64,000 nt of DNA, from positions 36,368-100,367 of the forward strand of contig FTLJ01000507.1 in the NCBI GenBank assembly GCA_900155495.1, in the 5' to 3' direction. The notes under the pieces are model-generated. The model was not told the origin of the DNA. It ran no database searches and saw only the letters and a program-made list of their open reading frames with translations. The position numbers and the translations under genes were made by a program. Below, piece by piece: positions 4,550 to 58,324 of this stretch. Positions within the stretch are counted from its first letter, which is position 1; every line of letters starts with the position of its first letter. This stretch comes from Porogramme epimiltina (Eukaryota; Basidiomycota; Agaricomycetes; Polyporales; Polyporaceae).

Positions 4550-4680
4550 AAGGCTCAGCATCTACGTTGGACATGAGAGGTTCAATTGTGAACATGTCGA
4601 CGAGGGTCTGTAATGTCATTGCTACAGACTTAACATGTAACGCTTCGAGCGGATTGGTCTTCACCGACGAGTCGAAGACG
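4550..4680 (-). pseudogene. Relic of an EIKP-family gene (divergent partner of the 4.9 kb YGWP gene)
   Basis: The minus strand encodes a fragment alignable with the EIKP family: FDSSVKTNPLEALHVKSVAM followed by TLQTLVDMFTIEPLMSNVDA. The intact copy at 28.5 kb reads FARLVNEDHRAQGVETGPM then TSQTLIDMTEIKPLNSNVNT. The core E-I-K-P has decayed to T-I-E-P, so the putative catalytic Glu and Lys are lost, and in-frame stops lie downstream. Its place, head-to-head with the YGWP gene at 4879, is exactly where an intact partner sits in the other cassettes. I read it as the remains of a lost partner. Confidence 0.7.
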
Positions 4681-4699: not shown

Positions 4700-4878
4700 A
4701 AATTCCTCTATCCGGATAATGATGACGTCACTGTAAGTCGGCGGGCCGGCCGAGGCCTCTGGAGCGCCCACTCCCTATGTGGCGCGAATCTGAACATGAT
4801 GCCGGTGTTGCATCCTGACCACTATCATCTTATCCGCCTTTCTGCTGTACACACGCCCCTCTCTCTAACAAATTCGCA
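4700..4878. promoter_or_regulatory. Promoter of the 4.9 kb YGWP gene, formerly bidirectional
   Basis: It contains a perfect TGACGTCA palindrome (4723-4730), a GCGCCCA element near 4763, GAACATGATG near 4793 and the family box CCTGACCAC ending at 4822, 57 bp before the ATG. The same ordered elements occur upstream of most other YGWP genes. The EIKP relic lies on its left side. Confidence 0.6.
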
Positions 4879-6206
4879 ATGACTGTTACGACACGCTCTA
4901 CGGCGAGAAAGACGCGTTCCTCGGTCGCGTACGCGAAGCCGGAGGCAGCGACTGAAACGCAGAAGAAAACCAAATCGTCTCCTTCGTCGAGAACGATATT
5001 GAAAGCATCCTCTAGAATGGTATCTAGGCGAGCTAAGATCAAAATAGCCCCCAAAGTGAGGATAAAGCGGGCAGACAAGACTGCCAACAAAGAGGCAGCA
5101 ATCGCTGCTCGCCGGACGCAAGACGCCGAAAGGGCTGAACAAGTGGTGAGCATGCTCGTAGACAAACATACTGTTCGTGCTCACATATCTCGGGTTTAAT
5201 ATACCTTCAGGGTATCAAGCGGGATGACATTCTCGCAAAATATCCCCCAATGAAAGCACTCACCACAGACGACCTTCCTCAACCGGGCAAGGAGGTACCT
5301 CACCGCATCTACGGCTGGCCTATCACCGAAGAATACATGATCGACTATGCCCGTCGTCATCGACTTGTCTTCGATGTTTCCTTACACCATCGCAAACGCT
5401 TCGGAGGCAGGGAGCAGTACAACTATGGCGATCTCACCGATGATGACCTCGCGGACGAGAAGCTCTTCCTCAGTCTTCGTAGACATGCGAAGTACGATGT
5501 CATGATGTGGTTCCTCACGGAAGTCGGCGCGACAAACCTGAAGATGGAAAGCCCAGCATCCCGGAAGTGGAAGTGCATGCTCGTTCTGTGGGACACACGG
5601 GACTACGAGGAGACATACGCCACGTACCAGGGACGGGGTAGTTGGGAGAGGGTGAAGAATTTCATCGACGACGCGTTAAACGAGTGTCTACCGGAAGGCT
5701 GCGAACGTCGGACCTCGCTCGAGTGGTTTTGGTCGCGCGAGAACACACTGGCAAGTTAAAAATTTGCTCTCAGCATTTCCGGCGTGGCCGGCTACGGGCG
5801 CTGAAAAAGAGAAAAAGTCGCCCTCTAGATTTTCGTGTAGGCGCCTCCTATTCGCCACGTGATTGCGACCGCGTCCGCGTTGTAGGGACTCGGACGCGTT
5901 CCAACTCGAGTCATACATTATGTAGTGCTCGTATAGGAAATTATAGCACATATCCGTTGAATAAAACCTTCATTTCGTATACAAAGGCCTTGCGCATGCG
6001 CGATGACACCCACCAGCGCTGGAAGCGGATTTTAGCGCTTCGTCGATTTCAGTCATGTGGCGGCTACAGCGCCGGTTCCAGTGGCTACAGAGCCGGCTCT
6101 GAGCCGGCTCTGTAGCCGGCCACGGCCAAAAATTCACGTTCCCGCCACGCCCAATAATTCACTTTCCGGCATTTCCATTGTGCTAACTTTGCTTTAGTTG
6201 ACCTGA
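4879..6206 (+). CDS. YGWP-family protein, copy 1 (intron carries an insertion)
   Basis: This is an unknown protein of about 271 residues. Exon 1 (4879-5145) gives the basic tail MTVTTRSTARKTRSS and a Lys/Ser-rich stretch ending AERAEQV. Exon 2 (5211-5750) carries IYGWPITEEYMIDYARRH, YNYGDLTDDDLADEK and NECLPEGCERRTSLEW. By homology with the other copies the last exon is only 6198-6206 (TTGACCTGA, two codons and stop), preceded by the intron end GCTAACTTTGCTTTAG. The second intron then runs 5751-6197, far longer than the usual ~50 nt, because a palindromic element sits inside it. It would use a rare GC donor (GCAAGT). If unspliced, the frame ends at 5759 after ENTLAS, which may still make a near-complete protein. 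Its partner to the left is only a relic. Confidence 0.75.
5781..6168. mobile_element. MITE-like palindromic insertion in an intron
   Basis: A 388 bp block is bounded by an 8 bp direct repeat GCATTTCC (5773-5780 and 6169-6176), the target-duplication length of hAT-type elements. It contains an inverted repeat CGTGGCCGGCTAC (5783-5795 against 6112-6124) and a perfect 35 bp palindrome centred on 6100 with arms GGCTACAGAGCCGGCTC. It encodes nothing. The inverted repeats do not start exactly at the direct repeats, so the true ends are uncertain; the 8 bp repeat could be chance. Confidence 0.55.
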
Positions 6207-7038: not shown

Positions 7039-8538
7039 TTATTGAGCCCGCTTTACGCGTTTCGCAGAGCGCAAGACCCCTGCGAATCGAAGCACGCCAA
7101 CCGTCTCATTGTCTTGGGCCTCATGGGCCGGAGCTGCCGTCTGTGGGATGGTACCGGCGGCGCTGGTGGTCGCAGCGGCCTCGTTCGGCACTGGTACGTT
7201 GGGGGCGGCGGCGTGTAATGCGCGCAGAAGCATACTACTGCGGGTGACTCTTGCTGAGATCGACGCGGGGGGTTGGTCTGCCGAGCCGTTCTGGGGCGGG
7301 GGTGAAAAGTCGGAATCCGTGTCGCGCCCCTCACCAGAGGTAGCTTGGCTTACAGCCGGGGTGACTGTCGGTGTTCCCCGAAGCACTTCTAGATGCCGTT
7401 CGAGTGATAACACGGGGATAGCGACTAGCTCCCTGTGCACTAGTTCATCTGCTGCATCCTACATAAATAAATGAGATAAAGAGGCTTGGTGAGGAAGAAT
7501 GTTTGGAACATACGGTCACACCAGCTGGGATCTCCTGAGGCTTCTCTCGCGGCGCCGACATCCAGCATGTGTCGTACGTAGTCTTCCGGTGATGCTTCAT
7601 GGGTTGCCGTAGGGACCATAGGAACGGACGCGTTAGCTGCACCTTAGCTTCAACGGAAGTCACGTCGCAACCCTCGCCGAAGGACACCATAGGCTCGTTC
7701 CAGCACAGGATTTCCGGCATTTTACGGCCCTTGGTCTCCTCGATGCTAGCCGTAATGCGGGAGATGAGATTCTCGTGTTCTTCTTGGGTCATCCTGGTGT
7801 GGGGGATAGCCTTCATTGCTTTGAAGTGATGAGGCTCGAGTATGGCTGTCTTAGGACGCTTCCAGTGTAGTTGAGTATAATAGATCCCAATCATTACCGT
7901 GACGTAAACATGCATCCACTTCGGGTTACGACAGAATGCAGCCATGGCCGTCGAGTAAACCTGAAAGAGACAGTCGCTGATCATACCCCCTGCTACGTTC
8001 CTAGCAGCCTCAGTACCCCAAGGCTCGTTATCACTCAGCGGCTTGATCTCAGTCATGTCGATGAGAGTTTGCGAGGTCATTGGCCCAGTGGTGATGCCTT
8101 GAGCACGATGATCCTCGTCGACGAGGCGGGCGTAGTCGGGGATCCTGACCGGCCACTCGTCCTCTTCACCACCTTCCGCCGATGCATCGGACGACTCCTT
8201 GCCAATACGTGACTTCTTGAGCGGGTATTGGGGTTCGGTGAACATTGTCTTATGAGGGCCCGGATCGACGACGGTGCACACCATCTCGGAGATGCGGTTC
8301 CATACGGGATATAGGGTCCCCTCTATGTCACGATTCTCCCATGCAGTTCGAATGGCGGTCAAGAGGCCGGCGTGAAATGCGTCCTTGTCATTCTTTGAGT
8401 CAAGTCAGTCCAGGCTTATACGCTATGGAAGATGGGAGATGGTCCGAGAGACTCGCATACTTTGTGTTTCTTGCGGTCGGGGTTTTCACCGTCCTCGGGC
8501 TTGTCGGATGTAGAGACTTGTTTACGCTTCCTAGCCAT
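7039..8538 (-). CDS. EIKP-family protein, copy 1 (candidate PD-(D/E)XK nuclease)
   Basis: This is an unknown protein of 458 residues in three exons, read leftward: 8461-8538, 7514-8392 and 7039-7458. Exon 1 is a basic nuclear-localisation-type leader (MARKRKQVSTS ... DRKKHK) that ends exactly at the basic cluster, as in the two paralogues. Exon 2 holds the conserved core: RIPDYARLVDEDHRAQG, then TLIDMTEIKPL, a helix CLFQVYSTAMAAF, MIGIYYTQLHWKRP and PEILCWNEPMVSFGEG. The spacing PD ... E-x-K ... Q resembles a restriction-endonuclease-like fold; that is inference. Exon 3 is low-complexity, Ala/Pro/Ser-rich, and shares TVTP and DSDFSP with the 28.5 kb copy. It is head-to-head with the YGWP gene at 9021. 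Confidence 0.8.
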
Positions 8539-9020: not shown

Positions 9021-9953
9021 ATGCCAGTGGCGACACGCTCTACCACTAGAAAGATGCGGTCCCTCACCGTATATGCAAGGCCACCGCCCTCCTCAGAGGC
9101 GGCGACACAGAAGACGGAGTTGTCGTCTAGGAAAGCATCAAAACCTCGCAAGCTAAAAGTGCCACAAGCAGAAGCCACGGCAGTGCCTAAGGCTATGGCG
9201 AAGCGGCCCTGTAAAATCGCCGCCACCGACGCCTCTGCCACTGCTCGAAAAGCCCAAGAGGCCCAGAGGGCCGAACAAATGGTGAGCACGATCGTGTATG
9301 ATTGGCCCTCCTCGAACTCACACCTCGCATGAACCTCCCGTCAGCGTCTCGAATGGGACGCGGTCGTTGCGAAATGTCCACCTCTGAAGACCCTCACGGC
9401 CGACAACCTCCCTCAACCCGGCAAGAAAGCTCCTCTCCGACTTTACGGTTGGCCCATCTCTGAAGACTACATGCTCGATTACGCACGTCGTCATCGGCTC
9501 CTCTTCAAAGTTCTCCCATGCCATCGCAAACGTTTCGGGGGGAAGGAGCAGTATAGTTACGGCGATCTAACGGAAGACGACCTCGCAGAAGACGACCACT
9601 TCTTTAGTTTCCGTAGACGTGCCACCCTCGACGTCATCATGCACTTCTTCTTGGAAGCGGGCGCCATTGACCTCAAATTCCGACGCCCAGTGTCTCGGGA
9701 TTGGGAGTGGATGCTTGTCTTGTGGTCTACCGAAACCTACGAGGAGACGTACTCTATGTACCAGATAGACGGGAGTTGGGAGAAGGTGAAGAAGTTCATC
9801 GACGATGCACTGAACGAGTGTCTGCCGGAGGGCTGCGAGCGTCGGACTTCATTAGAGTGGTGGTGGTCGCGCGAGAACAGGTTGGATAGGCTGGTGCGTC
9901 GAGAGTTGCTTTCTATCGTTATCATTTTGCTGACTTTATCGTAGTCTGCTTGA
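9021..9953 (+). CDS. YGWP-family protein, copy 2 (reference copy)
   Basis: This is an unknown protein of 272 residues in three exons: 9021-9281, 9345-9893 and 9945-9953. Residues 1-87 form a disordered basic tail beginning MPVATRSTTRKMRS, rich in Ser, Lys and Ala. It looks like a nuclear or DNA/chromatin-binding tail, which is inference. Residues 88-270 are a compact domain with RLEWDAVVAKCPPLKTLT, LYGWPISEDYMLDYARRH, YGDLTEDDLAED, WMLVLWSTETYEETY and FIDDALNECLPEGCERRTS. The last exon is TCTGCTTGA, only Ser-Ala-stop, after an intron with donor GTGCGT and branch GCTGAC. I know of no named family with these boxes. It is paired divergently with the EIKP gene ending at 8538. Confidence 0.85.
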
Positions 9954-10403
9954 CCGCGACCCCTACCGTCCTCCGTGGACGTTTGAGTATATACTGGGAT
10001 CCGATCTGTATTTGTATCAGATTTCCGTCTTTCTCTATTCTCATCTAAATTTGTTATTTTGGTATTCGATTTATGTGTGCTTACCTCTCTATCGCCCACG
10101 CACATAAGACCAACGTGAGGGCTCTCTGGATTATTGGTGCTGCATGGCATGCTTTGGACGAGCTGATGACCTTCTGGAAAAGTTTTGAAACGCCTTTCCC
10201 GCGCGATTAGCGGAACGCTTGACTCCCGCCCGCAGTACATGATATTTGGAACTCTAATATGGTGAACGAGGTGAGTGCTGCGGTAACACTCTAGCGCGTC
10301 AAATCACTCAGGGTCTCTTCGCTCTACTTATCTTTAAGCCGTGCCTCTGCCACCATAGCAGCACTTCATTCACCCGAGTCACGTCTATCTCCACATTTTA
10401 CCA
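9954..10403. other. 3' UTR of the YGWP gene and promoter of the BTB gene
   Basis: The first ~110 bp resemble the 3' flank of the YGWP copy at 25 kb (both have TGAGTATATACTG- or TGGTATATACTG-like sequence and GTATCAGATTTCC/GTATCCAATCTCC). This implies the duplicated unit includes the 3' UTR. The rest precedes the BTB start. No other gene is seen. Confidence 0.5.
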
Positions 10404-15035: not shown

Positions 15036-17006
15036 ATGGCATATCCACCGAAAACCCCCACGCGCCACCGGTCTCGTTCGGAAACCAAAACCCCACTTTC
15101 CTCCTCGATCTTCGGCACCAACCACCTCGCGGACGCATCAAATCCGTTCATCGTCCCCAGTCGCACAACATCCCCCGTCAAGAGCACCACACGCGGCTCA
15201 TATCAAGTCTCTGAAGCGCTCCAAAGGCAGGCCAGCACGGGTGTTATCCGGAAGGGCGGCATCGAGAGCAGGTTGGACGTAGTGACTAGGGACTATGTCC
15301 CACCACCGAAGTCTGAGAAGCGGTCTCGCTCGCAGCCAACGGTAAGCATCGCTCACTACTTCATTATCTTCCACTCGTGCAATACTCTGGTCCGGTTGAG
15401 GTCTTGGAGGTGTGCCGGATGACTGGCGGCTCGAGACGCAACGTTTCGGCGTCTTCGTCACAATGTGCTGCCCGATGTCAGCTAGTGGCACCAGACCACG
15501 AGTCGATGTACCACGTCAATCTTTCTTTGTCTCGCCACTCCGATGCATCGGTGTGCCACCTACCAACCACGCATATCATGCTTCAAACTCCAAGTTCGAC
15601 ATCCCGCCCCTCTTTCACTTCTTTACTCTGCAAACATGTCTGAACCGACCGACTCACCACCTCCTTCCCCTCAGCGCGACACCAGGGACAGATTCATCAC
15701 CACTCGAGATACCGTCGATGAGGTTGCCGCAACGCTGGACCTCATGTCCCTCAACCCGGAGTCGGCTTCACCTGGCCACACTGCGCGACTGGCTGCTGCT
15801 GCCGGTGTGCCACTCAACCGTCGTATTCTCGCGTATCACGAGCCTCCTCCGGCCGCGTCCTCCGACCCACTGATGGCACAAGCACGCGAACTCGTCCGCC
15901 CGTTGTACGCCCGTGCAGGGTCCTCCACCTCAAGTACGACAACTACAGGCACCACCAAGGAACGCCGCATAGCCAATCAGCCCTACAAGATTCTTGACGC
16001 TCCCGGCATGATTGACGACTTCTACCTCAACCTCATTTCCTGGAGTGCCACAAACATCCTAGGTATCGCGCTCATCAACAGCGCGTACCTTTGGATGGCG
16101 GAGACCGGCGAAGTTGTGCCCATGACACAAGGACCCGACGACGGCTATATCTCATCCCTCGACTTCTCCAACGACGGTGGCTTTCTCGGGGTTGGGTACC
16201 CGAACGGCGCCGTCGAGCTCTGGGACGTCGAGACGCGCACGAAGCTGCGCACGATGTCGGGGCACTCGGCGCAGGTCGGCGTGCTGTCCTGGAACGGCCA
16301 CATCCTCAGCTCCGGCTGCCAGGACGGGAGCATCTGGCACCACGACGTGCGCGTCGCACGGCACAAGGTCATGGAGCTGCTCGGGCACCAGGGCGAGGTG
16401 TGCGGGCTCAAGTGGCGCCCTGACGGCGAGCTGCTGGCGAGTGGCGGCAACGACAACGTGCTCAACGTCTGGGACGGGCGCGTCGGGGACGTTGGCACCG
16501 CCGCGAGCTCGTCGACGTCGACGAGCCAGCGCTCGGCGGCGCGCTGGACGAAGCGGAACCACACCGCGGCGGTGAAGGCGGTCGCGTGGTGCCCGTGGAA
16601 CCCGGCGCTGCTCGCGTCCGGCGGGGGCACGTCGGACGCGACGGTGCACATGTGGAACACGACGACGGGCGCGCGGCTGCACTCGCTGCCGACGCCCGCG
16701 CAGATCTCGTCCATCCAGTGGTCGCCGCACAAGAAGGAGTTCCTCACGACGCACGGCTACCCGGCGAACTCGATCATGGTGCACTCGTACCCGTCGATGG
16801 AGAAGCTCGCGGAGATCAAGGACGCGCACGACTCGCGCGTGCTCTTCAGCGCGCTCTCGCCGAACGGCGAGCTCATCGCGACCGCGGCGGGCGACGAGAA
16901 CCTCAAGTTCTGGAAGATCTGGGACGCGCCGAAGGCCAAGCGCAAGGAGGCGAAGGAGTCGTCGCGGGCGGGCAGCACCAGCGCGAGCATCCTCACCCTC
17001 AGGTGA
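15036..17006 (+). CDS. CDC20: Cdc20/Slp1-type APC/C activator (WD40)
   Basis: This WD40 co-activator presents substrates to the anaphase-promoting complex in mitosis. Exon 1 (15036-15341) gives MAYPPKTPTRHRSRSETKTP and a Ser/Thr/Pro-rich tail likely to be phosphorylated. Exon 2 (15675-17006) starts RDTRDRFITTRDT, where DRFI is the C-box that binds the APC/C, then QPYKILDAPGMIDDFYLNLI, the family signature before the propeller. Seven WD repeats follow (GVYLW-like SAYLW, VELWDV, SIWHHDV, LNVWDG, VHMWNT, LKFWKI). The tail ends ILTLR, a variant of the Ile-Arg tail. The 333 nt intron is long for this locus. An alternative ATG at 15636 would drop the N-terminal tail. Total 545 residues. Confidence 0.92.
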
Positions 17007-19196: not shown

Positions 19197-19680
19197 TTGG
19201 AGGGACTGTACGCTCAATTATCGTTGCTCCCTTGTTACTTGTGTACCTGTAGCATTCTATTCTGAAACCTCACCCGCTTCAGTCCTCATCCAAAGCAGCT
19301 AGAAGAGATAGTGTGTGATGACACCTAGCGAAACTTATTTGCACGTTAGATCAGTAGTCAATGAAGACAAGCTAGTAAAGCACATTAAAGCCATTTGTAA
19401 GACTGTGGACAATGTCGATGAAGTCAATCGTGTTTGAATAACAATCAATCCATATTGACACGCTCGGGATCTAAGTACTAAATATATTAAACAAACATGT
19501 ACGACAGAGAACCGCAGTGGGAGAGTCAACACGATGCCATCGCCACAAATGTAACGGATGGAATGACGATCCGCTTCAGCAGGAGGAAAGCCTGACGGTA
19601 GTGAGCCAGGACATCAGGTGCGGTAGTTGGGCCCGCCGATCATCCAGGACACTGCTTATCCGTTGGGACAGTGTATGACG
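19197..19680. other. Intergenic between convergent genes
   Basis: These are AT-richer 3' flanks of the Ser-rich gene and the YGWP variant. No gene, RNA or repeat is recognised. Confidence 0.4.
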
Positions 19681-20435
19681 CAGCAATGTAATGGGTTACG
19701 CACCACGTTGTTCCGCCAGTCCAAATACCAGTACAGTTCGCTCCGAACCCCTTCTTCTTGAACGCCCTCGGCGTTCATCTCCTTCTCCAGAATCGATATT
19801 ACCTTGTCATAGTCACGGCACCACTTCCACTGCTCCTCAACATCGTAGTTGGACCACAGCGACACGATCCCATCCCAGTCGATGCCAAACGGCCGGCCGC
19901 TGTTAAGAGAAATCTTGCATTTGCGACTGAGGTGGGAAATCATCGCTTCGCGGGCACTGAAGACAAAGAGCGCGCCGATGTGACGGTGCTTGAAGTGTTC
20001 CTCGGTAAGGTCCGCAACGTCGATGACGTCGGACGTCTCTTGGGACTGGTCGCGGTCGCGGAGCTGGTCAGGATCGTGAAGCTTGTGAGAGTCGTGAGAC
20101 TCGTCAAACTCATCAGAGTCATGAGACTCGTCAGACTCAGCGTCGTCCAAGAAGTTTGGGACGGTGAGGTGATTCTTCGCGGCGTAGCGCAGTGCGTAGG
20201 CGTTTGTGAAGGGGAATCCGTAGCGGTAAAGCGGAGGGGGGTCGGTGCTACCAGAAGCAAGTTCTGAGGAGTCTAAGTTTTCACGGGGTGGGAACATCTT
20301 CAGAGCGGTAGCCCATTCCTGCAAAGCAAGTGAGCCGGACGACTGCTAGAGGCGAATGGTGTCTAAGCATACCTTCTCCAGGGCAGCCCTCTCCTCGGAT
20401 GCAGATGCCGAGGTGCGATCCGTCTGGTATAACAT
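19660..20435 (-). CDS. YGWP-family variant A (short N-terminus, acidic insert)
   Basis: This is a divergent member. Exon 1 (20373-20435) encodes MLYQTDRTSASASEERAALEK and lacks the R-S-T-T-R-K tail. Exon 2 (19704-20318) gives EWATALKMFPPRENL, LYRYGFPFTNAYALRYAAKN (for YGWP), DVADLTEEHF, GIDWDGIVSLWSNYDVEEQW and NAEGVQEEGVRSELYWYLDW (for NECLPEG). An extra stretch of Asp/His/Ser repeats (DSDEFDESHDSHKLHDPDQL) sits in the middle. The donor GTGCGT after NNV matches the family's second intron; a final small exon (TGTCCTGGATGA) is inferred. No GGGCGTCT/TGACCAC promoter elements are seen and no EIKP gene is adjacent. Confidence 0.75.
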
Positions 20436-21320
20436 GGATGGCAGTGAGGGGGGAAAGCAAAGAGCTACTAGGAGGAGTCGGGGGTGCTTCTCAACAAGTG
20501 GGACTTGGTGGTGGGCGGCTGGTGGGCGGCGCGGCAAACGCGCTTGTTTAGGGCAGGTCGTTTCGCGTCTCGGAAGTCGTGCATCACGACGGGTGCCGGC
20601 CACCATTATGCCATGTAGCCTTGCTGCTGCAGAGACCAGGGATTGGTGGTTCTAGGCGGGGTTCGCAGTTAAAGTGTAGTGGGTGCATTCACAATCGCGT
20701 GTTTCTCAGCCGGAAAGTTCAATCGTCATTAACCCTAGCGTTTGTGCTTGAAAGACAATAAAATCTCCGATCGCGCCACGTCTCTCGAACACTATTGCTG
20801 CACTTGTTTCGTAGAACTCAAGGGCGTTCAAATTGCGGATCACTAGGCCAAGAAAGCCACCGAGGTGGCGGCTGTCGCTGGTATGTCTCAGTTATTACGG
20901 GAGCCTCCTTGATAAAAACTCATGCCGAATCAAGAGAACGAGACAGATTGCGACGACGTGCCGAGCTGGCGAAGCCACAGTCTTAGTATGTCGTGTCTAT
21001 ATATGCGACTGGAAAGAACGCATTCGTACTTGCGTAGCACTATTACTAAGGCCTGTGGAACACATGCAACGCAAATCATGATTGAATACTCATACATCCG
21101 AGTAAATCCGTATCGACAAACCGGTCGTGTGGGGGACGATAGTGACAACGGTGTACGACAGTCACAGGGCAGTGAGGTGGTAAGGGCAAAGCATGAGAAC
21201 AGGCGCACACATGCAGCGGTTATGATGACGATGGGCACTTTGACTGAGAGGAGGCTTGACAGCGGAGAGAGTGACGAGCCACGCCTACCAGTCAGGACGC
21301 TGGGCACCCGTTGAGTGTCA
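20436..21320. other. Intergenic between two YGWP variants
   Basis: This is about 0.9 kb holding the upstream region of variant A and the 3' flank of variant B. Several short open frames have no coding character. Nothing else is recognised. Confidence 0.4.
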
Positions 21321-21329
21321 TCCAGAGTA

Positions 21330-21985
21330 AGGTCACGCAATCTAGCACGCACCACATCGTTCCTCCAATCCAAATACCAGAACAGTTCACTCCGGACTCC
21401 CTCCTCTTGAACGCCCTCAGCATTCATCTCCTTCTCCAGAATCGAAATCACCTTGTCATAGTCACCACACCATCGGAAACGTTCCTCGATATCGTGGTTG
21501 GACCACAACGACACAATCCCGTCCCAGTCGAGGCCAAACGGCCGGCCGCTGTCAAAGGAGAACTTGCATTTGCGACCGAGATGGGATTTCATCGCCTCGC
21601 GAGCGAAATAGGTCAGGTACATGGCGACCTCCGGGTCCGCAAAATGCTCGTCTGTGAGGTCCGCAAAGTCCAGAACGTCCTTGTCCTGGAACAACTCGCC
21701 GCAGTCATCAAAGCAGTTCTTGATAGTGAGGTGATTCTTGACGGCATAGCGTAACGCATAATCGGTCTTGAAGGGGAATCCGTAGCGGTAGAGGGGGGGA
21801 GGGTCGGTGCTACCGGAAGCAAGCTCTGAACGATTGAGGTTTTTACGTGGAGGGTACATTTTCAGAGCGGACGCCCATTGCTGTAGAACAAGTAAATCTA
21901 ACGATTGCGGAGGCGGAATATTGTCACCGTGTACCTTCTCCAAAGAAGCCCTATTACGAACTTTGTAGGACGAGTTGGAGTCCAT
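21330..21985 (-). CDS. YGWP-family variant B
   Basis: This is closely related to the variant at 20 kb. Exon 1 (21935-21985) encodes MDSNSSYKVRNRASLEK. Exon 2 (21353-21880) begins QWASALKMYPPRKNLNRSEL and carries LYRYGFPFKTDYALRYAVKN, DFADLTDEHFADPE, GLDWDGIVSLWSNHDIEERF and NAEGVQEEGVRSELFWYLDW. It lacks the Asp/His/Ser insert of its neighbour. A donor GTGCGTGC follows NDV; the last exon is tiny but its acceptor is ambiguous (after GGTGCCCAG or after GACTGGTAG). The tandem, same-strand arrangement with 80% or so of visible motifs shared points to a local duplication. Confidence 0.75.
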
Positions 21986-22305
21986 GATGGATAGGGAGAA
22001 GTGAAAATTGGAAGACGACGGCGGCGAGGGAGAGGGCATGGAAGAGGGAGAGGAAGCGGGCATGGGAGAGGGAGAGGGAGAGGACGAGGATGATAATGAA
22101 GAGGAGGAGACAAAGTGAGAAGTAAGAGGTAGAGGTTTAGAATAGCCATGGCCAGGCTAAGACGGCGCCTATCGCGTGCCCGTGCCGGCCGAGAGACGCG
22201 TCGTACTAGTAGTGGCGTCAGGACCAGTCGCGCCGGCGACGCGTCTTGCGCCTTTTTCACGACCGCCACCGCTGCTACTTGTTTCAACCTCTCACCCCCT
22301 CCTGT

Positions 22306-25153: not shown

Positions 25154-26063
25154 TCAGCCTGACTAAAACAGCGTCAGCGGGACAGAAACGGCTGGAGACT
25201 ACTCCCAACGCACCACCGTGTCCAACCTATTCTCGCGTGACCACCACCACTCTAACGAGGTCCGACGCTCGCAACCCTCCGGGAGGCATTCGTTTAGAGC
25301 GTCGTCGATGAACTTCTTCGCCTTTTCCCAGCTCCTGTACATCTGGTACAAGGAGTACGTCCGTTCGTAGTCCTCGGTGGACCACACGACGAGCATCGAG
25401 TTCCAGTTCAGAGACAATGGGCGTCGGAACTTGAGGTTCGTCGCGCCTGCTTCTCGAAGGAAGAATATGAGGACGTCTAGGTTGGCGCGTCTGCGAAGAC
25501 TAATGAAGAGGTCTGCGTCCGCGAGATCTTCATCCGTGAGGTCTCCGTAGCTATACTGCTTAGCGCCCCCAAAACGTTTTCGATGGCATGGGAATACATC
25601 AAAAACAAGTCGATGACGACGCGCGTAGTCAAGCATGTAGTCTTCAGTGATGGGCCAGCCATATAGACGCAGAGGGACCTTTTTGCCGGGCCGAGGGAGG
25701 TCGTCGACCGTGAGGGTCTTCAGAGGTGGGCATTTTGCCACAGCGGCTTCCCATTCGAGACGCTGGAAAGAGTGTGAGGGGACGAAGAGACGGAATACGA
25801 ACAATCACACTCACCATTTGCTCAGCCCTCTCCGCCTCTTCCGCTTTGCGAACAGCGTTCGGAGTGTCGGTGTTCGCGGATTTGCGTGAGCCCTCTTTTG
25901 AGGCTATAGGTGATACCGAGGTCTTCTTGCACGCGGACGTGTACCTCGGAGGTCTCGATTTTGTCCCAGACGGCCGTGACGACGTGTTCTTCGGCGGTGT
26001 CGCTTCCTCCAGCGGCTTCGCATGCACTGTCTGGGACCGAATCGCTCTGGTTTTTACAGGCAT
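25154..26063 (-). CDS. YGWP-family protein, copy 3 (no partner)
   Basis: This has 268 residues in three exons: 25815-26063, 25214-25762 and 25154-25162. Exon 2 is 549 nt, the same length as in the 9 kb copy. The tail reads MPVKTRAIRSQTVHAKPLEE, four residues shorter than the usual RSTTRKTRS. The domain keeps LYGWPITEDYMLDYARRH, YSYGDLTDEDLADAD, SMLVVWSTEDYERTY and NECLPEGCERRTSLEWWW. The last exon is TCAGGCTGA (Ser-Gly-stop). The promoter box GTGGTCA (26130-26136) and GGGCGCCT (26157) are present. Where the EIKP partner should be, only sequence resembling the 3' flank of the 28.5 kb EIKP gene remains (26226-26352), so the partner was probably deleted. Confidence 0.82.
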
Positions 26064-26225: not shown

Positions 26226-26352
26226 ATAGTGACGTCATGACTATCTCTGGATGTTGGGAACGTTCGGAGAGCTCTACCATTCGATGGACGGACAGAATAA
26301 CAATATCCACTATGCTCACTGTGAAAATGCATAGCTACCTTTCGGAACAATG
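26226..26352. repeat. Copy of the EIKP-gene 3' flank (deletion scar?)
   Basis: This is about 125 bp similar to 30293-30432, with shared stretches such as ACCATTCGATGGACG and GATCTCTG-like ATCTCTG, and both ending in AACAATGTGAG. The second copy lies just downstream of the EIKP gene at 28.5 kb. Here the segment abuts the promoter of the lone YGWP copy 3, as expected if the EIKP gene between promoter and 3' flank had been lost. It begins with TGACGTCA (26230-26237). Confidence 0.6.
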
Positions 26353-27079: not shown

Positions 27080-28018
27080 TCAGGCGGACTAGAACAAAGT
27101 CAGCGGGCTGGCAACGATATGAAGTAAGTTGCGACGTACCAGCCTATTCTCGCGCGACCACCACCACTCCAACGAAGTCCGACGCTCGCAGCCTTCAGGT
27201 AGGCACTCATTGAGCGCGTCGTCAATAAAATTCTTCACCCTCTCCCAACGACCCAGTGCCTGGTATGTAGCGAACGCCTCCTCGTAGTCGCGCGTGTCCC
27301 ACAGGACAAGCATCCAGTTCCACTCTCGAGACACCGGGCTTTCAAACTTCAGGTTTGTCGCGCCGACTTTCACGAGGAACCACATCATGACATCGAAAAT
27401 GGCACGTCTACGAAGGGCGAGGAAGAGCTTCTCATCTGCGAGGTCGTCGTCCGTAAGATCGCCATAGTTGTACTTCTCCTTGCCTCCGAAGCGGTGGCGC
27501 TGGGATGGATACACGTTGAATACAAGCCTGTGGCGGCGGGCGTATTCGAGCATGTAGTCTTCAGTGATGGGCCAGCCGTAAATACGGTGAGGCACGTCCT
27601 TGTCAGGTTGAGGAAGGTCGTCGGCGGTGAGGGTTTTCAACGGCGGGCGTTTCGCCACAATTGCATCCCACTCTAGACGCTGAAGAAAGATGCAAGAGTA
27701 AGTAAGGAGGATCTAGCTGTCGGCGATCGTGCTCACCATTTGTTCGGTCCTCTCGGCATCTTGCGTTCGACGAGTGGCGACCGCTGCCTGGGTGTTGGCG
27801 GTCTTATGCGCTCGCTTCATCGCCACTTTGGGTGCGTTCTTGGTTGTGGGTTGCACGAGCCTCTTCTTAGAGGCAGAGGGCTCCCTGGATGTCGTCCTAG
27901 ACGAGGATGGGGGCGATCTGGTTTTCTTCGGTGCCGTCGCCGCCTCCGACGGGGGTGGCTTGGCGTACACCACCAAAGAACGCATTTTTCTCGTCGTGGA
28001 GCGTGTAGTAGCGGGCAT
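27080..28018 (-). CDS. YGWP-family protein, copy 4 (paired)
   Basis: This has 276 residues in three exons: 27737-28018, 27140-27679 and 27080-27088. The tail MPATTRSTTRKMRSLVVYAK is followed by a long Ser/Pro/Lys stretch. The domain has RLEWDAIVAKRPPLKTLTAD, IYGWPITEDYMLEYARRH, YNYGDLTDDDLADEK, WMLVLWDTRDYEEAF and NECLPEGCERRTSLEWWW. It is closest in motifs to copy 1 at 4.9 kb (both DVMMWFL and LVLWDTRDYEE). The last exon is TCCGCCTGA (Ser-Ala-stop), behind branch GCTGAC and acceptor TTCTAG. Its partner EIKP gene starts 508 bp away on the other strand, making the best-preserved cassette of the window. Confidence 0.85.
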
Positions 28019-28526
28019 TGTGAGTTCTCAAGGAAATGGTTTGCGGTGGAGGAGATTGGAAAGGTGGGTAGAATAGTGGTGGTCAGGATGCAAGAGGGAT
28101 TGGCTATGGGCGTCTGACTCTCATCATGTTCGGTTTCGATTCACGTGGGTCAAGACTGAGCGCTCCTCGGACAAAGGTCGGGCCGCGTGTCCCGAGGGCC
28201 GATCCGACCTACAGTGACGTCACCATTGTCCGAGTGCGATATGGTGGTCAAGACTAAGTCTAAACAGGCCCTGTTACCGTTCTGTCGAGTGCAATTGTCG
28301 CCCGCAGAAGGGACAATGAAGCCTGGAACGAGGTATTCATATATAAGTGGTCCACCCACCGCCCCCTGACAGGTCGTCCTTGTCCCCTCCCTGGACCTCC
28401 TTGACTCTACCTCCGATTCCTCTGGCCACTTGCTCTGCTCCGTGTCGGTGTTGAGACGTGCTACGAGAAACTAGGCTGGTTTCCTCGTCATCGCGTATCT
28501 TAGGCGTCTGTCCACCATCTTCAAGG
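28019..28526. promoter_or_regulatory. Shared divergent promoter of cassette 3
   Basis: Leftward it holds the family box GTGGTCA (28079-28085), GGGCGTCT (about 28108) and CATGTTCGG, in the order seen upstream of other YGWP genes. In the middle lies a perfect TGACGTCA (28215-28222). Rightward a TATA-like CATATATAAG sits at about 28337, 190 bp before the EIKP start. Confidence 0.65.
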
Positions 28527-30126
28527 ATGAGCAAGCGCAAACAGAACACCCGCCTAAGTGACTCGGACACGGTCACTGAGGACAGCTCTGACCACAAGAA
28601 ACGCAAGGTATGCCCCCCACGATTTGACTACCATACTTCGGTAACTTTATTGAGACTACTTTCCTTCTAATTAGAAGATAAATAAGCACTCATTTCACGC
28701 CGACCTCTTGACCGGTATTCGCACCGCATGGGAGGATCGCGCGACAGAGGCGAATCTATATCCTGTCTGGAACCGCATTTCCGAGGCGTTGTGCTCTGTC
28801 ATGGATCCTGGGGTTCATAAGACAATGTTTACAAACCCTCAGTACCCGCTCAAGATACAGGGTAGCGAGCAGAACCCATCCGACACGGACGACACGGCGA
28901 AGACTGAGAAGAAACCCAAATCATCTCTCAGAATCCCCGACTTCGCTCGACTTGTCAACGAAGACCACCGTGCCCAAGGCGTCGAGACTGGACCGATGAC
29001 CTCGCAAACCCTCATCGACATGACCGAGATCAAACCTCTTAACTCCAATGTGAACACAGAGCGCTGGGGTACACAGGGAGCCAGAGACAAGGCAGCCCTA
29101 GCAATTCCGGGGTGCCTCTTTCAGGTCTATTCCACGGCCATGGCCGCATTTCTTCGCAATCCTAAGTGGATGGAGGTCTACGTGACGATAATGATCGGAA
29201 TTTACTTCACGCAGCTCCGCTGGAACCGACCTTCCGATGAAATGCTCGAGCGGAGACCCACCGAACCCAAGACCTTGCGACGCATTCCGCACAGGAGACT
29301 CCTACCACATGAACATGGTAGCATGGTTTCCGACCTCAAGAAATGCATCGAGGAGACTCAGCATCGTGAGATGCCAGATATCTTGTGCTGGAACGAGCCT
29401 ATGGTCTCCTTTGGCGATGGCTGCGACGTTACGTCCTCCGGGGCTCAAGCTCAGCTAACACGCCTATTTCTATGGAGCGTAAGACAGCCACTCAAGCGTC
29501 ACCGGAAGACAACGTATGATCGGTGTTGGCTGTCGGCTCCCCATGACCGACCTGAAGAAGTGGACGCCGAGGAAATCGTATGTTCTAATATCTCCCTCCC
29601 AAACATTTCATAGGCACTAACGCAACTGTGGTGTTAGGATGAAGCGGACGGCACGGTACGCAATACTCTAGTTGACCAGCCTCTTGCGGAGCTCAAGGAC
29701 TACGAAAATGAGCTTTGGGGTCGTGACCCGACCGTCACTCCAGTGAATCGAGGCCGGTCCTGCGAGAGGGGAGACGAGGATTCTGACTACGAACCGGGGC
29801 CTAAGGTGCCTAAGAAGCCGAAGAAGCCGAAGACGAGACGCTACGTGAACGAGCCTGGAGATCTCACACCAGCCTCAGCCAAGATGAAACGTCGTAGTGA
29901 GGTTAATCCGTCTACCGCCGCTCCCGACGTGCCGCTGCTGGATGTGCCTCCTACTGTTGTCGCCGCAGATGTCGCCGCTCCAGCAGCAGCACAGGTCCTG
30001 GAAGAGCATGAGGGCGAGGAGAGTCATGTTGGATCGCTGGGGTTTTTCGGAACGTACTTGCATTTGATGAATGCGCAATTGGACGACGACGACGACGTCG
30101 TATTGGAAGGTTTCTCCTCCGACTAG
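28527..30126 (+). CDS. EIKP-family protein, copy 2 (candidate PD-(D/E)XK nuclease)
   Basis: This has 490 residues in three exons: 28527-28607, 28675-29577 and 29638-30126. Exon 1 gives MSKRKQNTRLSDSDTVTEDS ... KKRK, a bipartite nuclear-localisation-type leader. Core residues: P115-D116 in RIPDFARLVNEDHRAQG, E145-x-K147 in TLIDMTEIKPL and Q177 in CLFQVYSTAMAAFLRNP, the order and spacing of a PD-(D/E)XK core. Further conserved boxes are WMEVYVTIMIGIYFTQLRW and PDILCWNEPMVSFGDG. Exon 3 is disordered: a basic PKKPKKPKTRRY patch, then Ala/Pro repeats, then an acidic end DDDDDVVLEGFSSD. The fold call is mine from motif spacing; no named family is claimed. It is divergently paired with YGWP copy 4. 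Confidence 0.82.
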
Positions 30127-30750: not shown

Positions 30751-31622
30751 GCTCCGAGACAAATACGTACGTTGTTGCTGTCCTGAGACCACCACCACTC
30801 GAGCGACGTCCGCCGCTCACACCCCTCAGGCAGGCACTCATTCATCGCTTCGGTGATAAACGTCTCTATGGTCTCCCAGGTCCCTCAGTGCTGGTACCTC
30901 TCGTACTTTTCCTCGAAGTCATCGGTAGACCATATCACTAGCATCCGCTTCCAGTGTAAGGACACGGGATTGTCGACTTTGAGCATTGCGCCGGTTGTCT
31001 TCCGGAAGTGTGCGATGACTCCGATAGTCGCAATCCGCCTGAAAACGGCAAGGGATTTTTCGTCTGCAAGCTGAGCGTCCGTGAGGTCCGCGAAGTCGAA
31101 CTCGTCCTTGCCATCGAACTTCGACTTGAAGCCATTGGGTACAGAAAACGTGAGATGGTGTCTCTGAGCATAGTCGAGCATGTACTCTTCCGAGAACGGC
31201 CAGCCGTAAAGGCGATGGGGAGGGGAGCACTCGTTACTTGAGTTGGGAAGGTCATCAGGGCCTAGTACCTTGACAGGAGGTCGTGAGGCAACGACAGCCT
31301 CCCAGTCTTTCTGCTGGAAGACACGCATTATGATACGAAGTAAGGGACAGATAGCTGCACTCACCATGTTCTCCGCTCTTTCTGCCGCTTTAGCCTCTTG
31401 AATAGCGGCAGTAGCCTGAGGAGGGGTGACCTTCGATACCTGCATCGTCACTTTCTTGCGCATCGTCTTTGGCTTCATTCTCGATGCTGTGGCAGAATTG
31501 GGTATAGATGTCGTCCTCGACGACGAAGTCGACGCCAGCTTCGTTGTGGATCTCGTGGCAGGGTTTCCGTACACTGGTTGCGAACGGGATTTTCTAGTGG
31601 TAGAGCGCGTTACGCCAGGCAT
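30710..31622 (-). pseudogene. YGWP-family copy 5, broken by one nonsense codon
   Basis: Exon 1 (31365-31622) gives MPGVTRSTTRKSRSQPVYGN and ends AERAENM. Exon 2 (30771-31313, 543 nt) carries RLYGWPFSEEYMLDYAQRHH, DFADLTDAQLADEK and MLVIWSTDDFEEKYERYQH. A TGA at 30885-30887 then stops the frame after 228 residues. Beyond it the frame continues intact (GTWETIETFITEAMNECLPE), so a single base change separates it from the open copies. Splice sites are intact, including the last intron and a tiny exon CTCTACTGA. The family promoter box is present at 31713-31719. If translated, the product lacks the NECLPEG end. It could be a sequencing error, or a truncated protein may still be made. Confidence 0.75.
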
Positions 31623-32339: not shown

Positions 32340-33267
32340 TTACCGAAGCTGTTGGGCCTAGGATCAGCGATGATGCGCAATAATCTGACAAGCAGGTCAC
32401 GTACTTTGTTCTTCTCCCGCGACCACCACCACTCCAGCGACGATCTCCGCTCACAACCTTCCGGAAGACATTCGTTCATCGCCGCATCGATGAACGTCTC
32501 CAGCTTCCTCCAATTCCCAATGCGTCGGTACATCCAATACATTTCTTCAACGTCCTCCGTGGACCATAACACAAACAACCATTGCTGCTCTAGCGAGATT
32601 GGCTGTTCGACCGACAAAGCCGCCCCAGTGTTCTCCCTCAAGTGATTAAGGACTCGGAGAGTGGCGATCCGTCGCAAGTGAGGAAGCGACTTCTCGTCCG
32701 CGAGGTGATCATCTGTCAAGTCCGCGAAGCTGAACTCAGCTTTTCCGTCGAACTCCGAGCGACAGCCTTGGGGCACAGAGAACACTAGACCGTGTCTCCT
32801 CGCGTATTCGAGAGTATATTCTTCGGTGAATGGCCAGCCGTAAATGCGACGAGGAGCGGAGAGGTCGTTGTGGGGGCCGGGAAGGTCGTTCGGGCCCAAA
32901 ACTTTGAGGGGAGGTCGCGCGGCAACAAATTCCTCCCATTCTCGTCTCTGTGAAGTATTTAGTGTCAGGTAATCTAGCAATGGGACTGAGAAGCGCCACT
33001 CACCATCTTGTCGTCCCTCTCCGCTTGTGCAGTCTCCCGGGCAACAGTGGTAACATCGTCGAGGACGGTCTTGGATGACCACTTGGAGGTAGGCTTGCGC
33101 GCCATCTTGTTTTTCGTGTGAGTTAGTGTCTTGGAGGACGCTTTGGACGTCGTCTTTGATGACGAGCGAGGGACGGCGACTGTCTGTGTCGCTTTCGACG
33201 GCTCTGGCTTAGCGTACACCGTCTGTGAGCGAGTCTTTCTAGTGGTGGAACGTGTAATAGCGGGCAT
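32340..33267 (-). CDS. YGWP-family protein, copy 6
   Basis: This has 271 residues in three exons: 33004-33267, 32405-32947 and 32340-32348. The tail starts MPAITRSTTRKTRSQTVYAK. The domain has RREWEEFVAARPPLKVLGPN, IYGWPFTEEYTLEYARRHGL, FSFADLTDDHLADEK, WLFVLWSTEDVEEMYWMYRR and NECLPEGCERRSSLEWWWSR. Exon 2 is exactly 543 nt, as in copies 5, 7 and 8, which marks these four as one subgroup. The last exon is CTTCGGTAA (Leu-Arg-stop), using acceptor CCCAACAG; a nearer CCTAG would give a longer end. Promoter box at 33349-33355 and GGGCGTCT at 33379. Confidence 0.82.
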
Positions 33268-33777: not shown

Positions 33778-34703
33778 TCAGCGGAGCTATCAGTGCACCG
33801 AAAATCAGCATTAGCGCGCAAGGATCTTACAATATCAAGACGTACCTTGTTCTTCTCCCGAGACCACCACCACTCGAGCGACGTGCGCTTCTCGCTTCCC
33901 TCTGGGAGGCATTCGTTCATCGCTTCATTGACGAAAGTCTCTATCGTCTCCCATTCGCCCAGGCGCTTGTACCTTGCGTACTTCTCCTCGACGTCATCGG
34001 TGGTCCAGATGACAAGCATCCACTGCCAATCCAGAGACACCGGTTGGTCGACTTTGAGCATTGCGCCCTTTGTTGATCGAATGTGCGCAATGACTTTGAT
34101 AGTCGCCATCCTCTGCAAGGAAGGAAGCATCTTCTCGTCCGCTAGTTGTTCGGGCGTGAGATCTGCGAAGTCGAACTCGTCCTTGCCACCGAAGCGTTGG
34201 CGGCGGTCTGGATGCACTGCAAATCCAAGATGATGTCTCCGAGCATACTCGAGCATGTATTCTTCGGAGAACGGCCAACCGTACAGGCGATGAGGAGGGG
34301 GGTTTTGCTCGTCCGAGCCTGTAAGGTCTGCAGGTCCAAGGCTCTTGAGAGGAGGTCGTGCCGCAACGATATCCTCCCATTCACGTCGCTACAAGATTTT
34401 GCTTGTGAGACGGAAGAGCACAGAAAAAGCAGTCAAACTCACCATCTTCTCGGCCCTCTTCGCCTTTTCAGCCTCCCAGATGGCCGCAGCCTCCGCTGTG
34501 TCGAGGACTTTTGATGCCTGCTTCGCTACTGGCTTTCGCCCCATCTTCAATTTCTTTTGAGTTGCCGCTTTGGAAGGCGGTTTAGACGCCGTCTTCGACG
34601 AGCGAGACGCAGACTTTGCTACAGTCCTTGCTGCAGGCGCAGGTTTCGCATATACTGTCTGCGGACGGGACACTCTGGTGGTTGAGCGTGTTACGACGGG
34701 CAT
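33778..34703 (-). CDS. YGWP-family protein, copy 7
   Basis: This has 270 residues in three exons: 34443-34703, 33846-34388 and 33778-33786. The tail MPVVTRSTTRVSRPQTVYAK leads to a Lys/Ala-rich stretch (KKLKMGRKPVAKQASKV). The domain has LYGWPFSEEYMLEYARRHHL, DFADLTPEQLADEK, WMLVIWTTDDVEEKYARYKR and NECLPEGSEKRTSLEWWWSR, where the usual GCER is GSEK. The last exon is CTCCGCTGA (Leu-Arg-stop) after branch CTAATGCTGAT and acceptor GATAG. Promoter box at 34772-34778 and GGGCGTCT at 34801. It is closest to copy 5 by motif content (ATIKVIAH/ATIGVIAH, GAMLKVD). Confidence 0.82.
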
Positions 34704-35591: not shown

Positions 35592-36460
35592 CTAAGTATC
35601 AGCATTAGTGCTGCAGGGGTCCGACAAGTAGGGACGTACTTTAGTCTTCTCCCGCGACCACCACCACTGGAGTGACGTCCTCCCCTCACACCCTTCCGGA
35701 AGACGCTCGTTCATCGCCGCATCGATGAACGTCTTTAGCTTCTCCCAAATCCTAAGACACCGATATATCCCATACTTTTCATCGGCATCCTCGGTGGACC
35801 ATATCACAAGCATATGTTTCCACTCCAGCGAGATTGGCGACCCAAGCGACAAGTCCGCCCCGGTTTTCATCTCCAAGTAGTTGAGGACGAGACGAGTGGC
35901 GACCTTCTGCAAGCGAGCGAGCGACTGCTCATCCGCGAGGTGATCGTCCGTAATGTCCGCGAAGTTGAACTTAGCTTTCCCGTCGTACTTCGAGCGACAG
36001 CTTTCAGGCACATTGAACACGAGACCGTGTCTCCTCGCATATTCGAGCATGTATTCTCGGGAGAAAGGCCAGCCGTAAATGCGACGAGGAGCGGAGTGCC
36101 CATTTTCGGGGCTAGAAAGGCCGCTGGCGTCCAAAACATTGAGGGGAGGTCGGGCGGCAACGAATTCCTCCCAGGCTCGTTTCTGTAACGGTGTCAGATG
36201 ATATAGTAAAGGGATTTGGGAGCACCACCCACTGCATCTGCGGCCTCTCGAGCAACAGCGGTAGCTTGACCGTCGGCCGTCTTGGAGGATCGCTTAGAAG
36301 TATTTCTGCGTGTCACCTTGGTTTTTGCGAGTGTTAATGCCTTTGCGGATGGTCTCGACGTCGTCTTTAATGAGGACCCAGGTGAAGTCTTTGTCGCTTT
36401 CGACGGTAATTGCGTCTGCGAGCTTGTCCTTCTAGTAGTAGAACGTGTAACAACGGCCAT
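35592..36460 (-). CDS. YGWP-family protein, copy 8 (shortened exon 1, possibly decaying)
   Basis: Exon 1 (36233-36460, 76 codons) starts MAVVTRSTTRRTSSQT and ends REAADA. It lacks the ERAxxM end found in the other copies, and its donor is GTGGGT instead of GTGAGT/C. Exon 2 (35640-36182, 543 nt) gives IYGWPFSREYMLEYARRHGL, FNFADITDDHLADEQ, HMLVIWSTEDADEKYGIYRC and NERLPEGCEGRTSLQWWWSR, where the conserved NECLPEGCER has Cys to Arg and Arg to Gly changes. The micro-exon acceptor is ambiguous. The frame is open, but the deletion and weakened boxes suggest relaxed constraint. Promoter box at 36531-36537 and GGGCGCCT near 36559. Confidence 0.7.
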
Positions 36461-55552: not shown

Positions 55553-56497
55553 TTAAGGTGAGCAGCCAAGCTAGGTAACGATTAGCATCGATATCAACGA
55601 AGGTGTCGCCGTAATGAGCTTACCACTTTATTGTCCGCCGACCAGTACCACAGTAGTTCTGTGCGCTCCGCTTCAGCAGGCAAGCATTCGTTCATCGCAT
55701 CGTCGAGGAACTTCGACACCTGATTCCATATTCCAAGGATGTCAAAGGCCGCATACTTTTGCTCCACGTCGTAGTTCGACCACAGCACGACCATCCGCTT
55801 GTACTTCAACGAGAGGGGTCTCTCTACTGTCATTTCCACCCCCGTCTTGTCTGCAAGATACTCGAGGACCGACGACGCAGATGTCCGACGTAGCGAAAGT
55901 CGGAGTGGCTCGTGAGCGAGGTCCTCTTCTGTCAGATCCCCGTAGTTGTATTCATCCTTCCCGCCGAAGCGCGCTTGAAGAGTAGGGATAACGGGGAATG
56001 TAAGTCGATGTCGCCGCGCATACTCGATCATGTAGTCTTCGTCGTATGCCCAACCATATACGAAGCGTGGGCCGCAAAGTTCGTGACCGGGAAAGTCTTC
56101 TTCACTGAGGGTTTTTCGGGGAGGGCGCGTCGCGACGACCGCTGCCCACTCGCGTCGCTTAGTAGCGTGGGGTCCATCAGGACGAGCTTGAACATATAAC
56201 GAACGTGCTCGGACTCACCATCGCTTCAGCCCTCGCATCCATCGCGGCCCTTCGAGCTGCGATGGTAACCTCGTTGTTGGTCGTGGGCTTCCTCGATCGT
56301 TTGGTAGTCGCTTTGGAAGCTTTCTGGGAGGCAATTCTTGAGGTCTTCTTCGAGGTTTTCGTCGGGTGCATCTGCGACGACGATGCTTGTGGGCACAATA
56401 TAGATCGGGTGGTCTGGGGTGCAGCTTTCGAAGCGGGCTTGGAGTACATGGATTGAGAGCGGGTTACTCTCGTAGTAGTGCGCGTCGTAACAGGCAT
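55553..56497 (-). CDS. YGWP-family protein, copy 9 (paired, divergent subgroup)
   Basis: About 276 residues in three exons: 56219-56497, 55624-56157 and 55553-55570. The tail is MPVTTRTTTRVTRSQSMYSK. The domain keeps RREWAAVVATRPPRKTLSEE, VYGWAYDEDYMIEYARRHRL (Ala for Pro in YGWP), YNYGDLTEEDLAHEP, RMVVLWSNYDVEQKY and NECLPAEAERTELLWYWSAD. The last box is intermediate between the main group and the 20-22 kb variants (SNYDVEQKY against SNYDVEEQW, LLWYWS against ELYWYLD). The second-intron donor is GTAAGC. The last exon is longer than usual (CTTGGCTGCTCACCTTAA). The promoter box GTGGTCA lies at 56584-56590 with GGGCGTCT at about 56600. Its partner EIKP gene starts at 56826. Confidence 0.82.
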
Positions 56498-56825: not shown

Positions 56826-58324
56826 ATGCCCAGGTTGAAGAGGAAGCGAAGTGCGACAGATTCCGGAGAAACCCCTGGTTGGAACAAGCGCAAGGTATGC
56901 TGACCACCCTTCGAGATTTGCGCTCATTACGGCTGTTTTTGATCCTTACCGTCTTCTCGCCCATCAGGTAGTTGTCGAAGATGAGGAGTCTTTTCACCAT
57001 ACCTTGGCCCAAGACGTTAGCTTTGCGAGCGAGAATCGATCACTGGAACAATTCTTGTACATCGTCTTCAACCACATCTCTAGCACCATATGTAAAACCG
57101 TACAGACACACAAGCACCCCAACTCCACAATATCCACTGCCCCACAGTACGCCTTTGGGAATCCCGGTGCTAAGAATCCCCCTACTTTTGAGCCTGTCGA
57201 AGGCCTCAAGCTTCGCATCTTGTCCATGATCACAGACTCGGCGCGCATCATCAAGGTCAACAAGTCCGGGAGGTCTAAAGAGACCATACACATCCTTGTC
57301 GACTTTACAGAGATCAAGCCGCTCAACGTAGATGCCGAGTGGCACACTCAAGAAGCCAAGGACGAAGCTTTCAGTCACGTTACGCGGTACATTCTGCAAG
57401 TCTTCAAGACTGCCATGGCTGCGTTCCTGCATCACAGCGACTGGCATAGGGTTTACGCCATGCTAGTGGTCGGTGTATACTACTCTCAATTTCTCTGGAA
57501 GCGCCCTTCTAAGGGACTCATCCGGCCTCCCATCGAATTTGACTGTTTAAAGTCATTTCCCACCACGAGGCAAACCGCTGAGGAGTTCGAGCGACTGGTG
57601 GAACACCTCGATGCGGCGATTGACGAGTGCAACGGCCGTCTCCTTCCCGAAGTCTTGTGCTTTAACGAGCCTATGTTGACGTACCATCAAGTTGAAGACA
57701 GTAGCGCGAGCTCTGAGATCACCCTTACGCCTCAGTTCCTCTATTCGATGCGTTTACCATTGAAGCGCTGGTCGAAAACGAAGTATCAATTCAGCTGGCT
57801 GTCAGCACCTTCGGAGAAGCCCGACTTCGATTTGAATGCAATTGTACGTACATGACACGCTTACATCATGGAAACTAGCTATTGACAACTTGAGGCAGAA
57901 GGAAGGTCGCCAGATCGTGCACTCAGCTTTGGTATTGCAACCTGGCAAGAAGCTGAAACGTTTTCGCAATACCTTACTCGGTCCCCCAACGGTCTCTCGT
58001 TCCACCGTAGACAATGGTCATGGCAGGAAACGTCCTGAAGATCCCGACCTCGCGATGACCTCTTACCTCAAGAAGAAGTTGGCCATAGAGGCGAAGCTCA
58101 CCCCCCTCAAAGAGAGGATCGTTGATTGGCACATGAGGAGCAAGGCGAAGCGACGTCTGCGCAAGCACCAGAATCCTGGTGCTGTTACGGCCGATCTCAT
58201 TGCTGAAGCGAGCGGAGAGGTGCTCACGCGGAGGGAGTTACGCAGGAGGGGAGGTCGCATCGGCGTTGAGATCGCACCCATGGGTCATCTTGGGTCACGC
58301 AATGATGCGAACGCGAATGACTAA
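56826..58324 (+). CDS. EIKP-family protein, copy 3 (candidate PD-(D/E)XK nuclease)
   Basis: This has 456 residues in three exons: 56826-56894, 56968-57843 and 57899-58324. Exon 1 is MPRLKRKRSATDSGETPGWN plus KRK, the conserved basic leader. The core reads MITDSARIIKVNKSGRSKET (T-D for P-D), then HILVDFTEIKPLNVDAEWH, ILQVFKTAMAAFLHHSDWHR, VVGVYYSQFLWKRPSKGL and PEVLCFNEPMLTYH. Exon 3 differs from the other copies: it is strongly basic and helical (LKKKLAIEAKLTPLKERIVD, MRSKAKRRLRKHQNP), with GPPTVSRS matching the GTPTVTPA of copy 1. The divergence between copies is large, yet Glu-Ile-Lys, the downstream Gln and the divergent partner are kept. That argues for function rather than neutral drift. 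Confidence 0.8.

Follow-up and report, generated by a model that had tools for sequence, protein, structure and literature searches.

A divergent gene pair of Porogramme epimiltina, one partner a predicted nuclease and the other often solo, as a candidate poison-antidote module

The Wolbachia CinA/CinB system is described as a nuclease gene in linkage with a second gene, whose product acts by binding and rescue (PMC8787490). In the fungus Podospora, killing by Spok is reported to need the lysine of a PD-(D/E)XK nuclease (PMC6660238), with DNA as the likely target (PMC9972908) and with killing and resistance separable (PMC6660238, PMC9972908), and isolates of Schizosaccharomyces reportedly carry 4–14 predicted wtf drivers beside 9–17 antidote-only genes, both wtf proteins coming from one gene through overlapping transcripts (PMC9562144). 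Here we compare with these systems a head-to-head gene pair of the polypore Porogramme epimiltina, found in a 64,000-nt stretch of contig FTLJ01000507.1 (positions 36,368 to 100,367 of the forward strand; the whole stretch is hereafter the window), whose two families are called EIKP and YGWP. The pair has, in our estimate, about an even chance of being a two-gene poison-antidote module, with putative toxicity of EIKP and putative rescue by YGWP.

CinA/CinB is bacterial and its genes run in one direction, upstream and downstream, whereas EIKP and YGWP are fungal, divergent and intron-bearing, with many solo partners. Like Spok, EIKP/YGWP is multicopy and fungal; however, Spok combines nuclease and kinase in one protein, and membership of the Spok family was rejected because EIKP and YGWP are separate genes, neither with a Pfam kinase match. 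As in wtf, apparent full units are mixed with partner-only copies (here 7 and 21), but EIKP and YGWP are two genes instead of one, and no sequence relation to wtf was seen in a comparison limited to Pfam.

The preliminary description of the window had placed the two genes head to head, and this arrangement proved real, with 508 bp between the ATGs of the focal pair (P1):

27080..28018, minus strand: YGWP of pair P1, putative antidote (exon 1 27737-28018, intron 27680-27736, then exon 2)
28527..30126, plus strand: EIKP of pair P1, predicted PD-(D/E)XK nuclease of 490 aa (exons 28527-28607, 28675-29577 and 29638-30126)

The P1 YGWP gene starts at 28018 (minus strand) and stops near 27089, or at 27080 with a small third exon, so that its product, encoded around a 57-bp intron, is 276 or 290 aa long, according to which last splice is used. 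The three-exon P1 EIKP gene runs from an ATG at 28527 to a stop at 30126.

Compared with Pfam, neither EIKP nor YGWP matched a family above chance level, in agreement with the earlier remark that neither protein fits a named family. EIKP is nevertheless predicted to have the alpha-beta-beta-beta-alpha-beta core fold of the PD-(D/E)XK nuclease superfamily, with the acidic D89 on strand 2 and E118-x-K120 on strand 3, as the motif of that superfamily demands; E118 and K120 are invariant in 15 of 15 EIKP rows, and D89 in 10 of 10. EIKP is accordingly modelled as a nuclease of the PD-(D/E)XK (restriction-endonuclease-like) fold. Such a fold would also suit host genome defence, in which EIKP would act against invading DNA or transposons, YGWP would be its specificity or control subunit, and amplification would reflect an arms race with nothing selfish involved; we judge this unlikely. 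Both families are duplicated and diverged, as it would predict, but none of 10 EIKP rows matched the anti-phage system models of PADLOC, with EIKP alone scanned, and among ten window open reading frames (ORFs) compared with Pfam the four with matches (a CDC20-type gene, a subtilase, a BTB gene and an aminotransferase) did not look defence-like. A modelled nuclease fold in many copies could likewise mark EIKP as the endonuclease of a mobile element to which both genes belong, an idea that we consider highly improbable: the copies are divergent, separately selected and intron-bearing, the long repeats in their surroundings consist largely of these same genes, and neither EIKP nor YGWP has a transposase-type Pfam match, with no systematic search made for terminal repeats or target-site duplications.

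To count the two families, the genome (41.9 Mb in 926 contigs) was searched, all counts being lower bounds. Seven EIKP copies were recovered, and a distant Ganoderma protein used as query led to the same seven places. The 36 YGWP matches comprised 28 copies (at least 49% identity), three fragments and five distant relatives (23–30%); the 28 copies, of which one is partial and one has a stop, lie on just six contigs, and 27 of their 28 cores are free of stops. Every EIKP gene (7/7) has a divergent YGWP neighbor, with start-to-start gaps of 508, 482, 455, 472, 494, 336, and 328 bp as measured from EIKP starts predicted by splice models, and this tight linkage (328–508 bp) is what a toxin and its antidote should show. 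A check for EIKP genes lacking a YGWP neighbor, confined to this genome, found none among the seven. The dependence runs one way only, since 21 of the 28 YGWP copies are solo, an excess unexpected for the subunit of a defence nuclease. Where YGWP genes are arrayed around an EIKP, all of them lie on one strand and the EIKP on the other. Bacterial polyimmunity loci, which the passages of PMC3482391 that describe them present as tandem, same-orientation, divergent immunity paralogues never interrupted by toxin genes, resemble the YGWP arrays in being tandem, same-orientation sets of divergent paralogues; however, EIKP lies inside YGWP arrays, and assignment to this class was rejected. Within the window, recurrence of the pairing at 7.0–9.95 kb and 55.6–58.3 kb, as first described, was borne out, with both sides whole:

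7039..8538, minus strand: EIKP of pair P2 (core 7523-8389, ATG 8538; 3′ end from the ORF list only)
9021..9953, plus strand: YGWP of pair P2 (3′ end approximate)
55594..56497, minus strand: YGWP of pair P7, the most divergent pair
56826..58324, plus strand: EIKP of pair P7 (3′ end from the ORF list only)

Pairwise identity among the seven EIKP cores was 34–64% and among their YGWP partners 46–71%, and the two identity matrices were correlated (r 0.88, reached by 2 of all 5040 permutations, true order included), although only seven copies enter this comparison and the signal is partly shared history by block duplication. The proposal that the pair is a functional unit inherited together is supported by this correlation, by the constant presence of YGWP beside EIKP and by pairing at EIKP identities down to 34%. 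A mere accident of local duplication, in which one ancestral divergent pair was copied repeatedly and the two genes have unrelated roles, would account for 28 YGWP copies in mainly local arrays and for two window clusters that look like segmental duplicates, but is very unlikely in view of these low EIKP identities and of the asymmetry by which 21 of 28 YGWP copies lie away from EIKP and none of the seven EIKP genes lies away from YGWP. All seven EIKP cores (281–301 codons) are free of stops. The ratio dN/dS was 0.07–0.45 in ten of 11 YGWP comparisons and 0.09–0.26 in five of six EIKP comparisons, the remaining one of each not being computable, and the EIKP values are rough, with dS of at least 1.77; low ratios in both families would fit genome defence as well.

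Phylogenetic analysis of the 28 YGWP cores placed the paired copies in scattered positions, six of the seven with a well-supported solo sister or sister group: P1 with o1 (98/94), P2 with o4 (99/97), P3 with o6 (100/100), P4 with o9 (98/92), P5 with o7 (100/98) and P6 with three copies (100/99). The first two of these sister relationships fall within the window, where traces of lost EIKP genes were found:

4554..4646, minus strand: EIKP relic fragment of about 30 residues, with T and E at the sites of the catalytic E and K
4879..5759, plus strand: open YGWP o1 of about 270 aa, adjoining the EIKP relic; sister of the YGWP at 27–28 kb
25202..26063, minus strand: solo YGWP o4, sister of the paired YGWP at 9.0 kb
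26228..26332, plus strand: EIKP deletion scar, an EIKP 3′ flank about 165 bp upstream of the o4 start codon
30295..30399, plus strand: 3′ flank of the intact P1 EIKP, common to the deletion scar

The segment at 4.55–6.2 kb had been described as a relic pair; its EIKP is indeed a relic, but its YGWP is an open gene. The blocks at 4.2–10.1 kb and 25.0–31.0 kb look like inverted duplicates, with matches of 75% between 4871-5751 and 28026-27139 and of 75% between 9241-10040 and 25855-25060, at similar dS (0.76 and 0.86). Because crossed matches between the blocks are barely weaker (73%), all YGWP copies resembling each other, it is the tree and the shared gene order that justify the way the blocks are paired. 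The arrangement points to one ancestral two-pair block that was later duplicated. The left block has kept its second EIKP intact, and of the first just the fragment at 4554-4646 survives; the right block has an intact counterpart of that first gene (28527-30126) and has lost the second. The 105-nt scar is 81% identical to the P1 EIKP 3′ flank, a genome search with that flank found those two places and no other at an E value of 0.01 or better, and about 45 bp of YGWP promoter are left beside the o4 start. A different EIKP was lost from each block and all four YGWP genes stayed open, which gives two cases of EIKP loss with YGWP kept and, among the seven EIKP genes, no case of the reverse. A predicted nuclease that never occurs without its partner, and a partner that outlives the nuclease, form the pattern expected of a poison and its antidote; by comparison, a defence subunit is not expected to outlast its nuclease twice within one duplicated block. 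The other 19 solo YGWP copies could be products of simple tandem duplication, because no EIKP trace was seen near them in the stretches examined.

The poison-antidote reading is based here on the predicted fold and motif, the pairing of all seven EIKP genes, co-divergence, promoter elements (described below), low dN/dS and two one-way losses. Under this reading EIKP, a catalytically active nuclease with a basic first exon resembling a nuclear localization signal, would cut DNA in the nucleus, and YGWP, a small protein that is also basic-tailed, would neutralize it, probably by direct binding. Loss of the pair, or contact with EIKP in the absence of a matching YGWP, would then harm a cell or nucleus. 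Because EIKP without YGWP would be harmful, EIKP would never be found alone, and YGWP would be kept as an antidote-only gene after EIKP loss. Such a module might also have a role in spore killing or in internuclear conflict within the dikaryon.

Distinct promoter elements were found upstream of the two genes, by scanning 260 bp before the ATG in the 25 of 28 YGWP genes with a located start, paired and solo alike, and by inspection of the EIKP promoters:

28078..28085, minus strand: YGWP promoter element TGACCACC, present in 22 of 25 YGWP upstream regions, the other three reading TGACCACT
28294..28318, plus strand: EIKP promoter dyad ATTGTC-N11-GRACAATG, also at C357:42008, C451:16383 and C615:21233

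In six pairs the TGACCACC/TGACCACT element sits about 60–100 bp before the YGWP ATG, and the 8-mer TGACCACC occurs 45 times on both strands of 203,194 bases, compared with about 6 expected from base counts. The dyad is present in four of the seven EIKP promoters (P1, P3, P4 and P5); those of P2 and P6 have half sites and that of P7 has none. Allowing spacers of 5–16 bases, the genome contains 14 dyad matches versus none for a backward control, and all four dyads with an 11-base spacer are EIKP promoters. The poison and antidote genes may thus be under separate control. The half site resembles HMG-box binding sites, and control by a regulator of sexual development would fit this.

Relatives elsewhere were sought in a protein database, which held at least 10 EIKP and 17 YGWP relatives, most of them from short, unnamed contigs lacking genomic context. 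The closest named EIKP relatives among the matches listed were two Ganoderma proteins, without genomic context (loci LXA43DRAFT_993261 and GSI_10261), and no YGWP relative from this database came from a named organism; checks of viral contigs for both families and of prokaryote genomes for EIKP confirmed no relative. With at least 100 aligned residues required, which dropped one of the 17, 15 of 16 YGWP relatives were at least 88% identical to one of the 27 YGWP copies compared, whereas two of seven near EIKP relatives reached that level against the seven EIKP copies (98–99%) and the others were 51–82% identical, three Ganoderma-type relatives at 31–34% being excluded. EIKP content may therefore vary more than YGWP content among the source organisms. 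Such a difference, if it lies between strains, and the strongly divergent paralogues with matched partners could also reflect allorecognition (somatic incompatibility), in which non-matching EIKP and YGWP would cause cell death after hyphal fusion. We rate this as quite unlikely, as the database contigs possibly represent other species instead of strains and Pfam revealed no known incompatibility domain in either family.

Through much of their life cycle, basidiomycetes keep the two parental nuclei together in one cell. A broader reading, offered tentatively and with less than an even chance of being right, is that EIKP/YGWP represents a new nuclease-antidote killer of mushroom-forming fungi, acting as a spore killer or as an inter-nuclear weapon in the dikaryon, made of two unnamed families, with an antidote-only reservoir of possibly new fold and with distinct promoter elements by which poison and antidote would differ in timing. 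No basidiomycete killer of this kind was found in searches of open-access papers; the text seen of a review of conflict in mushrooms leaves meiotic drive aside while noting its role in some ascomycetes (PMC5031618), and the words basidiomycete, Basidiomycota and mushroom are absent from the text of a 2026 review of meiotic drive (PMC12941216). If the broader reading is true, mushrooms own a nuclease-based poison-antidote family and a natural record of dying poisons and surviving antidotes, and killer action in basidiomycetes becomes directly testable in one species.

The HD mating-type locus of basidiomycetes also consists of divergent pairs, HD1/HD2, that are multi-copy and very divergent, and EIKP/YGWP resembles it in all three respects. 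It was rejected as an identity for the pair because Pfam showed no homeodomain in EIKP or YGWP; three Homeobox_KN matches in the genome lie on other contigs (C139, C206 and C397).

A tblastn search of the window recovered nine YGWP copies (at 4.9, 9.0, 25.2, 27.1, 30.8, 32.4, 33.9, 35.6, and 55.6 kb), one distant YGWP relative, three full EIKP genes and one EIKP fragment. Three of the nine are paired, one adjoins the EIKP relic and five are otherwise solo, among them:

30777..31622, minus strand: solo YGWP o20, with a single in-frame stop and an otherwise conserved core
32414..33267, minus strand: solo YGWP o18
33852..34703, minus strand: solo YGWP o15
35649..36460, minus strand: solo YGWP o19

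More distant YGWP-like genes were also seen. Four are spread over 45 kb of contig C187 (104471-149617, L045–L049), with a core resembling YGW...DYAKRH...WWYDREN and no EIKP nearby in the stretches examined. In the window, two lie in tandem at 19656-22156 (minus strand) without EIKP nearby, about 26% identical to YGWP and 57–71% to each other (in two pieces); this tandem suggests that the YGWP domain predates its partnership with EIKP or extends beyond it. The EIKP/YGWP clusters are surrounded by ordinary genes, and between two of them lies a CDC20/Fizzy-type WD40 gene (15486-17003, plus strand; PF24807, E 2.8e-114).
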